Source: Deferrisoma camini S3R1 (GTDB lineage: Bacteria; Desulfobacterota; Deferrisomatia; Deferrisomatales; Deferrisomataceae). From it: a DNA stretch of 64,000 nt. The position numbers and the translations under genes are program-made. The DNA lies in NCBI RefSeq assembly GCF_000526155.1, contig NZ_JAFN01000001.1:934501-998500 (forward strand), read 5' to 3'. The notes under the pieces were generated by a model. That model made no database searches, was not told where the DNA came from, and saw nothing but the letters and a program-made list of their open reading frames with translations. Of the stretch, positions 1 through 46,659 are shown one piece after another; positions within the stretch are counted from its first letter, which is position 1; every line of letters begins with the position of its first letter.

Positions 1-509
1 CCGTAGCGCTCCAGCGCCTCGTAGGTGGCCTCGGGCGTGGGGCTGGTGACCCGCTGGTGGCCCCGCACGGCCACCAGGGCCTCCATGAACCGCTCGGCCG
101 TGACGCCGTACTCCGCAAAGATCCGGCCGGCCTCGGTCTCGGTACCCTCGCGGATCATGGCGAGCACCAGGTGCTCCACCGACACGTACTCGTCCTTGAG
201 CCGCTTCGCCTCCTCCTCGGCCCGAACCAGGAGCCGGTTCAGACGCTGGGTCACGTAGATCTTTCCGCCTTCGACCCCCGGGCCGGACACCTGGGGCCGC
301 GTGTCCAGGGCCCGGATCACCTTGGCGCGGAAGTCGGCCACCACCACGTCGAGCCGCTCCAGCAGTCGGGGAATCAGGCCGTCGGCCTGGTCCACCAGGG
401 CGAGGAGCAGGTGCTCCCCGTCCACCTCCACGTGGCCGCGCTTCATGGCGATCTTCTGGGCCTCGGCAAGGGCCTCCTGGGACTTCTGGGTCAGTCGGTT
501 CAGGTCCAT
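1..509 (-). CDS. clpB: ClpB disaggregase, N-terminal part (runs off the left edge)
   Basis: The minus-strand reading frame starts at 509 and runs out of the window, giving about 169 residues. It begins MDLNRLTQKSQEALAEAQ and continues with GEHLLLALVDQ and, about 80 residues later, VSVEHLVLAMIRE: the two half-repeats of the Clp N-terminal (double Clp-N) domain. ClpB is the ATP-driven cytosolic disaggregase that works with DnaK/DnaJ/GrpE. No ATPase domain is inside the window, so ClpC or ClpA is not formally excluded, but the starting MDLNRLTQKSQEAL is typical of ClpB. A GGAGAAGGAG-type ribosome site precedes the start. Confidence 0.88.
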   Translation of the reverse strand, partial: MDLNRLTQKSQEALAEAQKIAMKRGHVEVDGEHLLLALVDQADGLIPRLLERLDVVVADFRAKVIRALDTRPQVSGPGVEGGKIYVTQRLNRLLVRAEEEAKRLKDEYVSVEHLVLAMIREGTETEAGRIFAEYGVTAERFMEALVAVRGHQRVTSPTPEATYEALERY

Positions 510-575
510 GGTCTCCTTCTCCTTCTCGGCCCCGATCGGGCCGGTTGGTCTTCTGCGAGTTCGTACGCGGCCACA

Positions 576-794: not shown

Positions 795-2405
795 TCAGCC
801 GCGGATCCGGGCCGCGGCGTCGGACCACTCCTGCTGGCGCAGCACGTTCTTGCGGATCTTACCGGTGCTGGTCTTGGGCAGCTCGCAGAACTCGAAGTGC
901 TTGGGGCACTTGAAGTGGGCCAGCCGCTCCCGACAGAAGGCCCGCAGCTCCTCGGCCGTGGCGGTGGCTCCGGGTTTCAGGGTTACGAACGCCTTGGGCA
1001 CCTCGCCCCACTTCTCGTCGGGAACACCCACCACCGCGCACTCGGCCACGGCCGGGTGCTTGTACAGGGTGTTCTCCACCTCGATGGTGGAGATGTTCTC
1101 CCCGCCCGAAATGATGATGTCCTTCTTGCGGTCCTTGAGCTCGATGTAACCGTCGGGGTGCACCACGGCCAGGTCCCCGCTGTGGAACCACCCGCCCCGG
1201 AACGCCTGGGCCGTGGCCTCGGGCTGGCGGTAGTACCCGAGCATCACGTTGTTGCCGCGCATGACCACCTCCCCCAGGGTCTGGCCGTCCGCGGGCACGT
1301 CTTGCATGTTCTCGTCCACCACCCGCAGGAAGGCGGCGTGGGTGTAGGCCACCCCCTGCCGGGCCTTGAGCCGGGCCCGCTCCTCCAGGGGCAGGGCGTC
1401 CCATTCCGGGTGCCAGGCGCACACCGTGTGGGGGCCGTACACCTCGGTCAGGCCGTACACGTGGGTGAGCCGGGCGCCCATGTCCTCCACCTGGGCGATC
1501 AGGGTGGGGCTCGGCGGCGCGGCCGCCGTGACGATGTGCACGGGCCGGGCGAACCGATAGTCCGGGGCAGGCCGGGCGGCCAGGAACATGCGCAGCACGG
1601 TGGGGGCCCCGCACAGGTGGGTCACCCCCCAGCGCTCGATCAACCGGTACGCCTCGGCCGGGTCGAACCGGCGCAGGCACACGTGGGTCGCGCCCACGGC
1701 CGTGACCGCCCAGGGGAAGCACCACCCGTTGCAGTGGAACATGGGAAGGGTCCACAGGTACACGCTGGCCGTGGAAAGCCCGGTCTCGATGATCTCGCCC
1801 ATCGCGTTCAGGGCCGCGCCGCGGTGGGAGTACACGACGCCCTTGGGGTTGCCCGTGGTGCCCGAGGTGTAGTTGATCGAGATGGGGGTGGCCTCGTCCT
1901 CGACCCGAAAGGTCACCTCGGTGCCGGACCCTCCGGCCAGAAACTCCTCGTAGCCGGGGCCCGGGGGCACCCAGCCGTCCTCGGCGGCGGGGTCGGAGAC
2001 GTGCACGACCAGGCCGGGGAACGACTCCACGGCCTTTCTCACGCCGGCCGCCAGCTCCGTGTCCACCACGAGCACCTTGGCGCCGGAGTGCTCGAGGATG
2101 TACGAGACCTCGCCCGGGGAGAGGCGGGTGTTGATGGCCACGAGCAGGGCGCCGGTCATGGGCACCCCGAAGTGGGCCTCGAGCATGGCCGGCACGTTGG
2201 GCAGCAGCGCGGCCACCCGGTCCCCCGGTTCCACGCCGGCGCGGCACAGGGCGCCGGCCAGGGCCCGGCAGCGTTTGGCGAACTCCCCGTAGGTCCAGGT
2301 GTCCTCCCCGTACACCACGGCCGGCCGGTTGCGGAACACCACGCGGCTGCGGTTGAGGAAGTCCATGGGGGTCAGGGGGGCGAAGTTGGCGCTCTGAAAC
2401 GGCAT
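795..2405 (-). CDS. AMP-forming acyl-CoA synthetase (DmdB/fatty-acyl-CoA ligase-like)
   Basis: A 536-residue member of the adenylate-forming (ANL) superfamily, which activates a carboxylic acid to acyl-AMP and then acyl-CoA. The phosphate-binding loop YTSGTTGNPKGVV, the adenine-binding VYGLTEVYGP, the hinge region HSGDLAVVHPDGYIELKDRK and the C-terminal lysine segment PKTSTGKIRKNVLR are all present. The segment LPMFHCNGWCFPWAV is shared with methylmercaptopropionate-CoA ligases and medium/long-chain ligases, so the natural substrate cannot be named. The start at 2405 is chosen because AGGAGGTC sits five bases upstream. An in-frame extension to 2606 runs through the end of the next gene and is not used. 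It is followed by its own terminator, so probably one gene of its own or the tail of a longer transcript. Confidence 0.9.
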   Translation of the reverse strand: MPFQSANFAPLTPMDFLNRSRVVFRNRPAVVYGEDTWTYGEFAKRCRALAGALCRAGVEPGDRVAALLPNVPAMLEAHFGVPMTGALLVAINTRLSPGEVSYILEHSGAKVLVVDTELAAGVRKAVESFPGLVVHVSDPAAEDGWVPPGPGYEEFLAGGSGTEVTFRVEDEATPISINYTSGTTGNPKGVVYSHRGAALNAMGEIIETGLSTASVYLWTLPMFHCNGWCFPWAVTAVGATHVCLRRFDPAEAYRLIERWGVTHLCGAPTVLRMFLAARPAPDYRFARPVHIVTAAAPPSPTLIAQVEDMGARLTHVYGLTEVYGPHTVCAWHPEWDALPLEERARLKARQGVAYTHAAFLRVVDENMQDVPADGQTLGEVVMRGNNVMLGYYRQPEATAQAFRGGWFHSGDLAVVHPDGYIELKDRKKDIIISGGENISTIEVENTLYKHPAVAECAVVGVPDEKWGEVPKAFVTLKPGATATAEELRAFCRERLAHFKCPKHFEFCELPKTSTGKIRKNVLRQQEWSDAAARIRG

Positions 2406-2463
2406 GGATGACCTCCTGATGTCCTGATGGGATGCCCGGGAGGAAACGTGGTCGCCGCCCGGG

Positions 2464-5400
2464 TCACGCCTCCGTGCCCACCCCGTTCGGCCGCCGCCAC
2501 CGGCTGCGAAACCCCACCAGGCCCCACAGCCGCCGGCTCTGGTGATGGCGGAAGATCTCCTCCAGCGACAGGTGGGGATCCCGATCCGGGGTCTGGAGGT
2601 AGGCACGGATCGCGTCGATCCGGCGGACCAGCTCGTCCTCGGCCGCGGCCCTCAACTCGGCCTTGGCCTCCAGGATCTGCTGCTTCATGTCGGCCGGGGG
2701 TCGTTCGCCCCGGTACTTGCGGAGCTTGTACGCTACCCGCATGCGGATCAGGCGTTCCAGGGTCTCGTGGTAGTCGTCCCCCAGCCACAGGACCTCGGGT
2801 ACCAGGTCTCCGAAGTGGGTGACCCCCAGGATGTCCTTGCCCTGCTCCCAGTAGGCCATCAGGTAGTCGATGTCGAGGTCCCTGTAGTTCTGGAGGGGCA
2901 TATACATGCGTCTTAAATATTGAAGCACCTTCTCAGCTTTTTTCTTGTGGCCTCCGATGATCACGGAGCTTCCCACCTCGCCCCGCTTGACCCCCTTGGT
3001 CCAGGGCGCGCCCGTGATCCCGAAATCGTTGGCCACCGGCAGGTGCAGCAGGGCCGAGAGGGTGTTCAGGGCCAGGGCGTAGCCGGCCGAGGGCCCGCCC
3101 ACCGTGTAGGAGGCGGACAGGAGCTGGTGGTGGATCGTGTAGCGGTCGAGGAACTCCCCCAGCACCCGGGGCACGTTGATCTTGGGGGTGAGGCTCTGGA
3201 GGTAGTTCTCCACCAGGGTGAACGCCTCCTTGGCCGACTGCTGGGTCATCTGCACGGCCATGTCCAGCTCGGCCGCGTTGGGGGCCGAGCTGGACACGGC
3301 CCCCGTCACCAGCACCTTCTCGGGCGCGAAGTTGTACATGAGGCTCGTGGCGATGGGCAGGAGCATGCCGGTCACGTCGTTCGCGCCCACGCCGATGATG
3401 AACCCCACCTGGGGTTCCTGGCTCAGCTCCGCCCCGAGGAACTCGTCGAGCTGAACCTTGCCCTTCTTCGTGGGGCTGCGGCCGAGCTCCTGGCGGGCGG
3501 CCTGGAGGTGGGCCCGGGTCAGGGGGTAGTCCTCCGGTCGGTCCACCGGGTCCACCAGCCGGAGGAGCTCATAGTAATGGTGGAGGAACTCCAGGGGCCG
3601 GGCCTTGATGTCGGAGCGCAGGGTCTGAGGCGCGTCCAGCGCCTCGAGGATGCCGGCCAGGGTCTTCAGGTTGAACTTGACGAAGTTCTCCTTGGCCTCG
3701 TCAGGCGCCTCCACCAGGGCCCGGAGCCGGAGGATCACCTCGTACTCGGTCTTGCGCAGGCCGGCGGCCTTTTCCACGAACGCCGCGAAGTCGGCCGGGG
3801 TCTGGGAGACCTGGGAGGCGGCCTCGAAGATCGCGGTCGTGTCGATGCCCGGCGCCAGGGGCACGCCGTCGAGCCTGCGCTCGAGGATGCCGACGATGTC
3901 GGCCTTGCGCAGGTGGCCGCTGATCTCCAGGGCCTTGAGGCGTTTGGACCGGACCAGGGCCGGGTCCAGGATGTCGAGCCGGTTCGTGGTGAGCACGGTG
4001 AACACGCGGTTCAGGGGCACCTCGCCGTCGATGATGTTTAGAAACTTGTTGGTGACCTTGTCCTGGGGGCTGCCGCCCGAGGGGCTGCGGCGGGGGGCCA
4101 CGGCGTCGGCCTCGTCGAAGAACACCACGGTGGGGGCGATCATCTTGGCGATGTCGTACACCCGCTCGAGGTTCTGTACGGTGCCGTCGATGGGGTTGGA
4201 CGGGTCCATCAGGTCGGTGGGGCGTACCGAGATGTCGTGCACGTCGCGGTTCTCGCTGAGCCACGCCCGCACCAGGAAGGTCTTGCCGCTGCCCGGGGGG
4301 CCGCTGAGCACCACCCCCTTCTCCTCGGCCGCCCCGTAGTAGAGGCAGTTGTTGGCCATCTCGGAGAACAGGTTCTTGATCTCGCCCACGTACTCGTCCC
4401 AGCCGACCCGGCGGTCCATGCGGTCCACGACCCGTTTGTACAGGTCCCCGTACGCGTTGCGGGCCACGGCCTCGAACGCGGTGCGCATCAGCATGGCGTC
4501 GTCCAGGTACTCGGGCCGGAAGTCCCCCTTGATCTCGATCACCGAGTGGACCAGCTTGCGCACGTACGCCGGGGTGAGCTTCAGCGCCCGTTCCGCGAAC
4601 AGGGGGCCCAGCCGGTCGACCGCGGCGGCCAGGTCCGAGGGGGTGAGCTCCCGGCCGCCGGCCGCGCCCGGGGCAGGCTCCACCGGGATGTCGTTTCTCC
4701 GGAGCTCCAGTCGGATCACCTCCCGGAGGTTCTCCGGGTCCTTCCAGAACTCGGACACGTCCACGATCCGGCCCTTCTCCACGAACCGCCGGTAGATGGC
4801 CGCGTCGATTCTCTCGGGCTGGTCCGTGGTGGCCACCAGCAGGCAGTCCCGCCGGCCCTGGATGATCTCGTCCAACACGATGTTGGCCGTGTCCACCAGG
4901 GTCTGCTGCTGACTCTCCACGGCCGAGCCGCGGCCGTCGGCCCGGCCAAAGGCCGCGTGGGCCTCCTCCACGTGGCGGATCGAGGTGCGCCGGGGGTCGC
5001 CCATGGCCTTGCGGAAGAAGTTGCCGGGCTCCCCGGCCAGGGCGGTCTGGTAGTCGTTGGGCGTGACCACGCTGTAGTCCACCCAGACCCCCTGCTCTTC
5101 CAGCTCGGCCAGGTGCCGGCCGATGCGCTTCTGGAACACCCGCCGAACCACCGGCGTCCGGGCCAGGGTGCGGTAGAACCGAAGCTTGCGCCGCCGGGCG
5201 ATCTCGAGGGCCAGGGTGGGGTCCACCGCCTCCAGGGTCCTCCAGAACGGCTCGTCCCGGAGCCGCTCCTCCTTCTTGAGCTTCAGGTCCACCTCGGGCC
5301 GCACCTCGTTGCGGAAGATCACCTCTTCGATGGCCTGGGTCACGGTGGCGGACTTGCCGCTGCCGCTGGGGCCCACCACCAGCACGATCGGGGCCTTGGG

Positions 5401-5859
5401 CACCGCGGGGTCGTTCATGTACTCCTTGCGGATGAACGCCCGGTAGAGCTTCTCGAACAGACGGCGCACCGGCTCCGGCACGAACACGTCCGACAGCTCC
5501 CGGTCCAGCAGCCACAGCAGGTACTCGTAGTCGTTGGCGCTCACCTCCTTCTCGAGGATCCGGTTCCAGGCCTGACGCGGGTTGGTCTCCCCGGACAGCT
5601 CGAACCGGCGCTGCCAGTCGGTGAGGATGGCGGGGTCCTTGAGGGTGCGGAACGTGCGGGGGGGCTGCGGAAAGAACAGGGAGAGCAGCCCTTCGATGGT
5701 CCCGTTCACCAGACCGGTGGGGGGCTTGTACTGGTGGAGCCGGGCCCGCATGAACGCTTTGGTCTCCTGGGGCCACGAGGCGACCAGGTCCTCGATCTCC
5801 CGGATCCGGGCCTCGGGGAGCCGGACCGTGCGGACCTGGCGGGTCAGGCGGCGGGCCAT
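2464..5859 (-). CDS. Double-AAA+ ATPase with C-terminal Lon-like serine protease domain
   Basis: A 1131-residue protein of unusual architecture. Residues 1-150 are helical and unassigned. A first P-loop GPSGSGKS (163-170) belongs to an AAA module whose Walker B is weak (IRHVEEAH, 294-301) but whose sensor-like ATTDQPERIDAAIYRRF is clear. A second AAA+ module has GPPGSGKT (520-527), Walker B VVFFDEAD (578-585) and TTNRLDILDPALVRSKR. Residues 800-1060 resemble the Lon (S16) protease domain: GGPSAGYALALN gives the nucleophile Ser924 and IIGGHKKK the paired lysine (972-974). It lacks the LonA N-terminal substrate domain and the LonB membrane insert. The start is one base after the stop of the SPFH gene, so the two are expected to be translated together. 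Likely a membrane-recruited ATP-dependent protease; substrate unknown. Confidence 0.8.
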   Translation of the reverse strand: MARRLTRQVRTVRLPEARIREIEDLVASWPQETKAFMRARLHQYKPPTGLVNGTIEGLLSLFFPQPPRTFRTLKDPAILTDWQRRFELSGETNPRQAWNRILEKEVSANDYEYLLWLLDRELSDVFVPEPVRRLFEKLYRAFIRKEYMNDPAVPKAPIVLVVGPSGSGKSATVTQAIEEVIFRNEVRPEVDLKLKKEERLRDEPFWRTLEAVDPTLALEIARRRKLRFYRTLARTPVVRRVFQKRIGRHLAELEEQGVWVDYSVVTPNDYQTALAGEPGNFFRKAMGDPRRTSIRHVEEAHAAFGRADGRGSAVESQQQTLVDTANIVLDEIIQGRRDCLLVATTDQPERIDAAIYRRFVEKGRIVDVSEFWKDPENLREVIRLELRRNDIPVEPAPGAAGGRELTPSDLAAAVDRLGPLFAERALKLTPAYVRKLVHSVIEIKGDFRPEYLDDAMLMRTAFEAVARNAYGDLYKRVVDRMDRRVGWDEYVGEIKNLFSEMANNCLYYGAAEEKGVVLSGPPGSGKTFLVRAWLSENRDVHDISVRPTDLMDPSNPIDGTVQNLERVYDIAKMIAPTVVFFDEADAVAPRRSPSGGSPQDKVTNKFLNIIDGEVPLNRVFTVLTTNRLDILDPALVRSKRLKALEISGHLRKADIVGILERRLDGVPLAPGIDTTAIFEAASQVSQTPADFAAFVEKAAGLRKTEYEVILRLRALVEAPDEAKENFVKFNLKTLAGILEALDAPQTLRSDIKARPLEFLHHYYELLRLVDPVDRPEDYPLTRAHLQAARQELGRSPTKKGKVQLDEFLGAELSQEPQVGFIIGVGANDVTGMLLPIATSLMYNFAPEKVLVTGAVSSSAPNAAELDMAVQMTQQSAKEAFTLVENYLQSLTPKINVPRVLGEFLDRYTIHHQLLSASYTVGGPSAGYALALNTLSALLHLPVANDFGITGAPWTKGVKRGEVGSSVIIGGHKKKAEKVLQYLRRMYMPLQNYRDLDIDYLMAYWEQGKDILGVTHFGDLVPEVLWLGDDYHETLERLIRMRVAYKLRKYRGERPPADMKQQILEAKAELRAAAEDELVRRIDAIRAYLQTPDRDPHLSLEEIFRHHQSRRLWGLVGFRSRWRRPNGVGTEA

Positions 5860-5860
5860 C

Positions 5861-6781
5861 TCACGGCTCCTGGGCCTGGGGCAGGGTCAGGGCGGGGGGC
5901 ACCTCGGTGTTCTGGATGACCACGGTGCTGCGGCCCCCGGGGTTCTTCTCGTACGCCGTGGCCCACTTCTGCTGGGCCAGAAAGTTCAGCAAGGCCACGT
6001 CAGTGGAGCCGTCGGGCCGCCCCACGGTGCGCTGGAGCTCCCGGATGCTCTCGGTGTAGGCCCGGTAGAGCTTGCGGATCCGGCTGGCCTCCTGGTCGGC
6101 CGCGTAGTTCTCGGCCTCGGCGATCAGCTCGCGGCGCTTCTTCTCCTCGGTGGCGGCCACCAGCTTGTCGCCGAACCGGGTCTCCTTGAGCACGAAGCTC
6201 ACCACCTCGATCCCGTACTTCTGCTCCAGGGTCGGGCCCCCCTCGTTCACCGGCCGGCTCTTCAGGGCCCGGTAGATCTCCTCCTTGATCCGTTCCCGGC
6301 CGCTCACCAGGCGGTCGACCTCCTGGGCCTGGAGGATGTCCTTCACGATCCCGTCGTAGTCGGCCTGGAGCAGCCGGTGGGCGTCCAGGTTCTCGATGGC
6401 CCACTGGTGGAGATCGCGGATCCGGTAGGTCATGACCCCCGAGGTCCACAGGGCCACGTTCTCCTTCGAGATGATCCGCATCGGCTCCGCCTGCCCGCCG
6501 AGGTGCATCTGCTGGTTCATCAGCGGCACCTCCTGCTCGATGCGGGTGAAGTACGGCAGCCGGAAGTGCCACCCCACCTCGGTGATCGCCTGGCGTTGCC
6601 CCCCCAGCTTCTCGAGGACCACGGCATAGTTGAGCTTGACCTTGTAGATGGTGCGGCTCGCGTACACCAACGCCACCAGGCCGTAGACGAGACCGATGAG
6701 CAGGCCGATCCCGATCGTCCGGCGAAGCGCGGTCCGGACGAACGCCCGGCGGACGAACTTTGCGCTGGGTTCCGTGGTCAT
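5861..6781 (-). CDS. SPFH/band-7 (HflC/stomatin-like) membrane protein
   Basis: A 306-residue protein with a basic N-terminus, one membrane segment (about residues 20-42, GIGLLIGLVYGLVALVYA) and an SPFH domain: NYAVVLEKLGGQ, then GWHFRLPYFTRIEQEVP, later a charged helical region EEKKRRELIAEAENYAADQEA typical of band-7 proteins. The C-terminus is proline-rich. The family forms cage- or ring-like membrane assemblies; HflK/HflC surround the protease FtsH. The start at 6781 is preceded by AGGAG nine bases upstream. Its stop is one base before the start of the double-AAA Lon-like gene, which suggests a comparable scaffold-protease pair. The partner function is inferred from context. Confidence 0.85.
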   Translation of the reverse strand: MTTEPSAKFVRRAFVRTALRRTIGIGLLIGLVYGLVALVYASRTIYKVKLNYAVVLEKLGGQRQAITEVGWHFRLPYFTRIEQEVPLMNQQMHLGGQAEPMRIISKENVALWTSGVMTYRIRDLHQWAIENLDAHRLLQADYDGIVKDILQAQEVDRLVSGRERIKEEIYRALKSRPVNEGGPTLEQKYGIEVVSFVLKETRFGDKLVAATEEKKRRELIAEAENYAADQEASRIRKLYRAYTESIRELQRTVGRPDGSTDVALLNFLAQQKWATAYEKNPGGRSTVVIQNTEVPPALTLPQAQEP

Positions 6782-46297: not shown

Positions 46298-46659
46298 GGG
46301 GGCGATCTGGGTTCGACGGGGACACTGAAGCCGGATGCTGCGTGCCGAGGTCGCCGGTTGGCCTCGTAAAACAACCGGCAAACACACAACTGCCGACAAC
46401 TACGAGTTGGCCCTCGCGGCCTAAGTAGGCCGCGACGCCCGCCCCGCCCCGCCTGCTGGACGGAAGCGGGTGTCAGCGAAGCAGGCTAGTTCCGGCGCTT
46501 TGCCCCTTGGCGCCGGGGCGAAACCTTAACAGGGGCTCGCGGTCCCGGAATCCTGTCCGTGGGAGCCCGTGGCCGCTAAACCCAGAACACGGACTACGCA
46601 CGTAGAGGCTCCGAGCGGATGGTCTTCGGACGCGGGTTCGATTCCCGCCGCCTCCACCA
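46298..46659 (+). ncRNA. ssrA: tmRNA (SsrA), tag ADNYELALAA
   Basis: Transfer-messenger RNA that rescues stalled ribosomes with SmpB. The 5' end GGGGGCGATCTGGGTTCGAC and the 3' end GGTTCGATTCCCGCC...GCCTCCACCA form the tRNA-like domain with an encoded CCA. The tag frame runs GCC (46,392) to TAA (46,424) and reads ADNYELALAA, the usual hydrophobic degradation tag ending ALAA. Pseudoknot-rich G+C segments fill 46,440-46,560. Its 3' side abuts a sequence repeated at 63,880-63,990, so ssrA appears to be an integration site. Confidence 0.97.

Follow-up and report, generated by a model that had tools for sequence, protein, structure and literature searches.

A strictly paired SPFH protein and tandem-AAA, Lon-like protease of Desulfobacterota as a candidate membrane-associated proteolytic machine

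INTRODUCTION

The complex of FtsH with HflKC is an established example of an AAA protease with an SPFH partner (PMC12048511), and so is the partnership of prohibitin and the m-AAA protease, cited in a 2009 survey of prokaryotic SPFH proteins (PMC2636767). In both cases, a classic AAA motor and a protease domain lie in one chain and the SPFH protein is its membrane partner. Two roles have been put forward for HflKC, inhibition and assistance with membrane substrates (PMC12048511). It is unsettled why membrane AAA proteases have SPFH scaffolds at their side, a question on which the gene pair described here bears.

Three other groups of described systems resemble this pair in part. The LonA, LonB, LonBA and LonC proteases (S16) share with its protease a homologous C-terminal protease domain, a Ser-Lys dyad and, in the A-type, a Pro before the Ser. 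Cdc48/p97, like the actinobacterial Cpa, has an N-region followed by tandem AAA modules; Cdc48 passes its substrates to a separate proteasome. In the SPFH-NfeD operons (PH1511-PH1510, QmcA-YbbJ and FloA-NfeD), an SPFH gene also belongs to a conserved operon, which in some cases includes a protease, but that protease, NfeD1b, is ClpP-like and has no AAA motor. The 2009 survey listed NfeD and FtsH as partners of SPFH proteins, together with several small families that had no documented members (PMC2636767), and the SPFH family studied here may be among those it counted, though without the partner.

RESULTS

An SPFH gene and a Lon-like protease gene form a conserved two-gene unit

We analysed a window of 64,000 nucleotides from Deferrisoma camini S3R1, whose genome of 4.24 Mb is a single contig. 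An initial annotation, made from the sequence, had reported two genes one base apart, and both open reading frames were confirmed on the minus strand. The first of the pair (P0002, 5861..6781) encodes an SPFH protein of 306 aa, identified by its Band_7 match, its fold and a conserved start, its ATG being kept among relatives. The second (P0001, 2464..5859) encodes a tandem-AAA, Lon-like protease of 1131 aa, and 1 nt separates the SPFH stop from the protease ATG.

A scan of 84,980 species returned 133 places encoding relatives of the protease. The best 80 of these 133 were examined, and all belong to Desulfobacterota, judging from their record titles; adding 5 loci from the window's own class gave a set of 85. 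Protease homologues in Desulfobacterota are 54–98% identical. The co-occurrence check proposed in the initial annotation turned up no protease locus that had room for an upstream SPFH gene and yet lacked it: in 79/79 loci with room, the SPFH gene is the immediate upstream neighbour and has the same orientation, the other 6 loci being at contig ends. A few loci represent one species present in two collections; the non-redundant set (n = 73) has a median gap of 2 nt, with overlap in 29 of the 73 pairs. Profile searches of 395 Desulfobacterota genomes, which were sampled by species, are partly drafts and, owing to shared ancestry, are not independent trials, found both genes in the same 11, next to each other in every case, and a lone copy of either in none. 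Given the 79/79 loci and the matched presence and absence in whole genomes, the two genes constitute a conserved unit, and their pairing is not a product of chance. This strict genetic linkage distinguishes it from FtsH-HflKC.

One order, that of genome G295, was followed in 194 genomes. The Lon-like protein was found in 37 of them and the SPFH protein in 34. As for the three genomes without SPFH, two have their protease at a contig end and the third (G440) holds a remnant (locus L153, 4398-4733), which consists of ~100 protease residues around the AAA2 Walker A, at most 70% identical, with no SPFH gene. This remnant looks like the scar of a joint loss. Pairwise divergences of the SPFH protein and the protease correlate (r = 0.88), as expected for genes inherited together. 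The patchy distribution of the pair and its joint loss point to an accessory function. The host also encodes HflK, HflC, a stomatin-like SPFH protein, two FtsH and two LonA; since it thus has the usual machines, the pair is an addition to them and not a substitute.

Several other readings of the locus were rejected. Clustering of neighbouring genes revealed no third gene common to most loci, which dismissed a larger operon. The copy in genome G133, flagged for a stop and suspected to be a pseudogene, encodes a protease that matches over its whole length, at 100%, the intact 1101-aa protein of locus L106. A mobile-element or viral origin was likewise set aside: no relatives were found in IMG/VR, and what plasmids and phages yielded were AAA or Cdc48/FtsH-type matches over part of the query, always below 80% coverage.

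The protease carries two classic AAA modules of the Cdc48/FtsH type

The protease starts with a helical region defined by alignment and model (residues 1-125; 5485..5859, minus strand), the first ~45 residues of which are conserved (W29, F36, L41, Q43). That two ATPase modules and a Lon-type domain follow, as initially annotated, was borne out by AAA and Lon_C matches above the Pfam cut-offs. The AAA match (PF00004) reached 101.1 bits in two stretches, and the Walker A, Walker B and Arg-finger motifs of classic AAA proteins are present. AAA1 (residues 157-373; 4741..5391, minus strand), delimited by conserved motifs and fold, has a Walker A of the form GxSGxGK[ST] (163-170), a Walker B RHxEEAH (295-301) and Arg fingers R357/R358. 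Its Walker A is followed by a helical insertion of ~70 residues, which Cdc48 does not have, and then by a pore-like ALAGEPGN (273-280) that aligns with the pore region of Cdc48 D1. AAA2 (residues 500-700; 3760..4362, minus strand), delimited by Cdc48 D2/FtsH profile matches and fold, has a Walker A GPPGSGKT (520-527), a Walker B FFDEAD (580-585) and R637/R640, all invariant or nearly so.

The first Walker B had been described as degenerate, and this description did not hold. RHxEEAH occurs in 85/85 loci, with Glu in place of the metal-ligand Asp and with the catalytic Glu retained; the Walker A lysine, the catalytic glutamate and the Arg fingers of each module are invariant in the family. Judging from these residues, AAA1 is probably an active, or at least a nucleotide-binding, ring.

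We compared the modules with known ATPases. An AAA2 profile of the family scored 79-81 bits with Cdc48 D2, 64–68 with Cdc48 D1 and 67-75 with FtsH, and the LonA motors of the host were absent among the matches listed (i-E < 0.5). Searches of solved structures ranked Cdc48/p97 first. With both modules, a structure aligner returned Rix7, NVL and Cdc48 (455–491 residues, Z ~20–21, rmsd 9–10), and with AAA2 alone, proteasomal Rpt subunits (Z ~22, rmsd 3). The score with the Cdc48 NCBIfam model TIGR01243 was 85.9 bits, against a cut-off of 802.65. The ATPase modules are tandem classic AAA modules of the Cdc48/FtsH type and probably not of Lon's AAA type, a feature missed by the initial annotation. 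A PrkA-like AAA1, suspected by eye, was rejected, as no PrkA was among the Pfam families listed for 30 members and the fold is Cdc48-type.

The aligned pore position of AAA2 has no aromatic residue, Pro556 being invariant, and that of AAA1 is a Leu, sometimes a Trp or Tyr. In yeast Cdc48, one ring lacks the pore aromatic, which restrains uncontrolled degradation (PMC5511170). By analogy, the AAA2 pore position might exert a similar restraint on degradation.

The C-terminal domain belongs to the Lon family but to no described subfamily

The Lon-type (S16) protease domain spans residues ~800-1030 (2770..3462, minus strand). Lon_C scored 26.4 bits in the window protease, for a cut-off of 21.1, and was present in 35/35 family P-domains scanned; a profile search with the P-domain also matched solved Lon structures. 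The model is poor in this domain, with pLDDT values of mostly 25-55 near the active site, so that a fold search listing no Lon chains for it was uninformative. In an alignment with the host's own LonA proteins, Ser924 (GGPSAG; codon at 3088..3090, minus strand) and Lys974 (GGHKKK; codon at 2938..2940, minus strand) fall on the LonA dyad. The serine is kept in 85/85 and the lysine in 84/84. The dyad initially assigned to Ser924 and to Lys972-974 was therefore right for Ser924 and Lys974, while Lys972 and Lys973 are variable and are not the catalytic lysine. Loss of the dyad in most members had been named as grounds against a membrane proteolysis system, and we found no member without it. His910–His911 and Thr949 are also invariant. 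Such conservation of the dyad argues for an active enzyme.

In LonA and LonB, exactly 42 residues lie between the catalytic Ser and Lys, a separation of 43 (PMC9569914), whereas in the alignment with the host LonA every member of the present family has 49, that is, a separation of 50. The difference is a family-specific insertion of 7 residues before the catalytic lysine. Around the active site, the family has GGPSAG where LonA has DGPSAG (Asp to Gly) and TGA where LonA has TGE; the Pro before the catalytic Ser, a LonA trait, is found in all members. The LonA equivalog TIGR00763 scored 33.8 bits against a cut-off of 608, over residues 807-1018 only. The absence of a LonA substrate domain and of a LonB membrane insert, both noted initially, was confirmed: no Lon N-terminal domain was among the matches listed, and the best 19-residue mean hydropathy in the window protease was 1.54, at a position within the P-domain. 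By hydropathy, the protease has no transmembrane segment.

Spacing, motor type and N-terminal parts are unlike those of LonA and LonB. It also differs from FtsH, a membrane-anchored zinc (M41) enzyme with one AAA ring, by its Ser/Lys (S16) chemistry, its two AAA modules and its lack of an anchor, and from Cdc48 by having a protease domain of its own. The protease of the pair is neither FtsH nor a member of any described Lon subfamily, and its P-domain is of the Lon family.

The SPFH partner is a distant member of its superfamily with a basic N-terminal tail

The SPFH assignment of the upstream gene proved sound. Pfam Band_7 matched at 61.8 bits (cut-off 23.6), over residues 48-232 (6086..6640, minus strand), and a fold search, run on a model of moderate confidence (mean pLDDT 73), returned FtsH-HflKC, HflK/C, QmcA, prohibitin and stomatin chains. 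The protein has the N-terminal membrane segment and the long C-terminal helix of the superfamily. The former is a single transmembrane helix (residues 23-41; 6659..6715, minus strand), supported by hydropathy and conservation, with invariant Tyr33 and Tyr40, and lies within a model helix spanning residues 8-42. The latter (residues 207-253; 6023..6163, minus strand), a helix in the model, includes the part of the protein that is best conserved in the family: conservation reaches 0.90-0.93 across residues 196-240. The protein also has a conserved C-terminal region. The NCBIfam equivalogs for HflK and HflC scored far below their cut-offs (22.2 against 134.4 bits and 18.5 against 159.4 bits), which marks the protein as distant within the SPFH superfamily.

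The membrane helix is preceded by a basic tail (residues 1-22; 6716..6781, minus strand) with the motif F-L-x-R12-A-F-V...R20-R21, in which R12 is present in 66/66 sequences and R20 in 63/66. The mean net charge is +4.1 in this tail and +2.5 after the transmembrane helix, and the N-terminal side is the more positive in 53/66 sequences. Under the positive-inside rule, this modest difference in charge favours a periplasmic SPFH domain and a cytoplasmic tail, which is the arrangement of HflK/C. With a periplasmic SPFH domain, only ~22 residues would be left in the cytoplasm to contact the protease, making the tail a candidate docking element.

DISCUSSION

The data support the view that a divergent SPFH protein and a Lon-like AAA+ protease, whose dyad is intact, are obligate partners. 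We propose, with a probability of about 0.62, that the pair encodes one membrane-associated or membrane-tethered, selective AAA+ protease machine with a dedicated SPFH partner. We infer its hexameric state, threading, physical interaction, membrane location and substrate class along the following lines. The protease would form a hexamer with two stacked ATPase rings of the Cdc48/FtsH type, which would unfold substrates and thread them into a chamber made by the C-terminal Lon-type domains, where the Ser924/Lys974 dyad would cut them. The single-pass SPFH protein, probably by way of its basic cytoplasmic tail, would recruit the protease to the inner membrane or organise it there, and may help select substrates in, or associated with, the membrane. 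That the AAA2 pore loop has no aromatic points to a selective rather than a general protease.

FtsH contacts HflKC via its membrane and periplasmic parts. The initial annotation had envisaged an assembly analogous to the one in which HflKC encloses FtsH, and here we depart from it: the protease has neither a transmembrane nor a periplasmic domain and the SPFH domain is predicted to be periplasmic, which makes a simple copy of the HflKC cage doubtful. More tentatively, and with the odds somewhat against it, the pair may represent an undescribed class of membrane AAA+ proteases, which would combine a Cdc48-type two-ring unfoldase with its own Lon-type peptidase, function solely with a dedicated SPFH protein and have arisen independently of FtsH-HflKC. 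We found no paper in the open-access literature describing an SPFH/AAA–Lon pair.

A different use of the same parts would make the SPFH protein a substrate, which the Lon-like enzyme clips or turns over, thereby controlling a membrane scaffold. In the PH1511/PH1510 operon, the NfeD-type protease PH1510 does cut the stomatin PH1511 (PMC13086221, PMC3795559); such a relation would account for the strict pairing, and the conserved C-terminal region of the SPFH protein is in keeping with it. However, the charge bias probably puts the SPFH domain in the periplasm, beyond reach, and a double-ring ATPase seems too much for one clip, so that we regard this as rather unlikely. The departures of the active site from LonA (Asp to Gly, TGE to TGA, the 7-residue insertion) and the AAA2 pore position without an aromatic could also belong to a non-proteolytic remodeller that extracts or disassembles membrane complexes, as Cdc48 functions without a protease of its own, with the P-domain serving as a ring scaffold. 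Yet Ser924, Lys974, His910-His911 and Thr949 are invariant down to 54% identity, which would be unexpected in a dead enzyme, and we consider a remodeller unlikely.

The distribution of the pair (11/395 genomes in the phylum, 37/194 in one order) and its joint loss in G440 are patterns that would also be left by a module for anti-phage defence or stress conflict which genomes acquire and lose as a cassette, and the AAA modules gave weak matches to IetA and TRIP13 models. Against this stand the lack of copies on plasmids, phages and IMG/VR contigs, the housekeeping-type genes among the neighbours and the PADLOC results, in which only generic AAA matches were obtained and none for SPFH. The generic nature of those matches led us to reject a known defence system, and a defence role of any kind appears very improbable.

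The strict pairing and the lack of a membrane anchor in the enzyme would allow a clean test of what the scaffold does, by single-gene deletion. A Cdc48-type double ring with its own peptidase would parallel the Cdc48–proteasome pathway in a compact, single-chain form. Were independence from FtsH-HflKC true, SPFH scaffolding of AAA proteases would have arisen more than once.

Genes around the pair

In the window, an AMP-binding acyl-CoA ligase-type gene (795-2410, minus strand) starts ~55 nt past the protease stop and, in the window's genus, may lie on the transcript of the pair. The start of a ClpB-type disaggregase gene (3-510, minus strand) follows on the same strand, two genes downstream of the pair, and a multihaem cytochrome c gene (PF13447; 7703-9043, minus strand) lies upstream. 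As for a shared promoter or heat-shock element, simple, crude patterns for sigma-54, sigma-32, CIRCE and sigma-70 were absent or rare upstream of the pair.

Among relatives, a convergent FloA gene is found ~0.6 kb downstream of the protease in ten loci (L072, L077, L080, L081, L082, L084, L085, L087, L088 and L113; PF12127, 530 bits in L088), most of which also carry short NfeD and NfeD1b/ClpP-like genes; FloA with such a partner is a further membrane scaffold accompanied by a ClpP-like protease. This neighbourhood is confined to one subgroup, in Desulfobacteraceae-type genomes. The FloA neighbours and the ClpB neighbour of the window fit protein and membrane quality control, though neither is conserved family-wide. 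Elsewhere, an alpha/beta hydrolase gene lies directly upstream of the SPFH gene on the same strand (L037, L038, L039, L043, L045, L049, L050, L051, L060, L067, with PF12146, and L070), often within 65 nt of the pair. The window also holds a tmRNA gene (46298-46659), whose tag peptide is ADNYELALAA.
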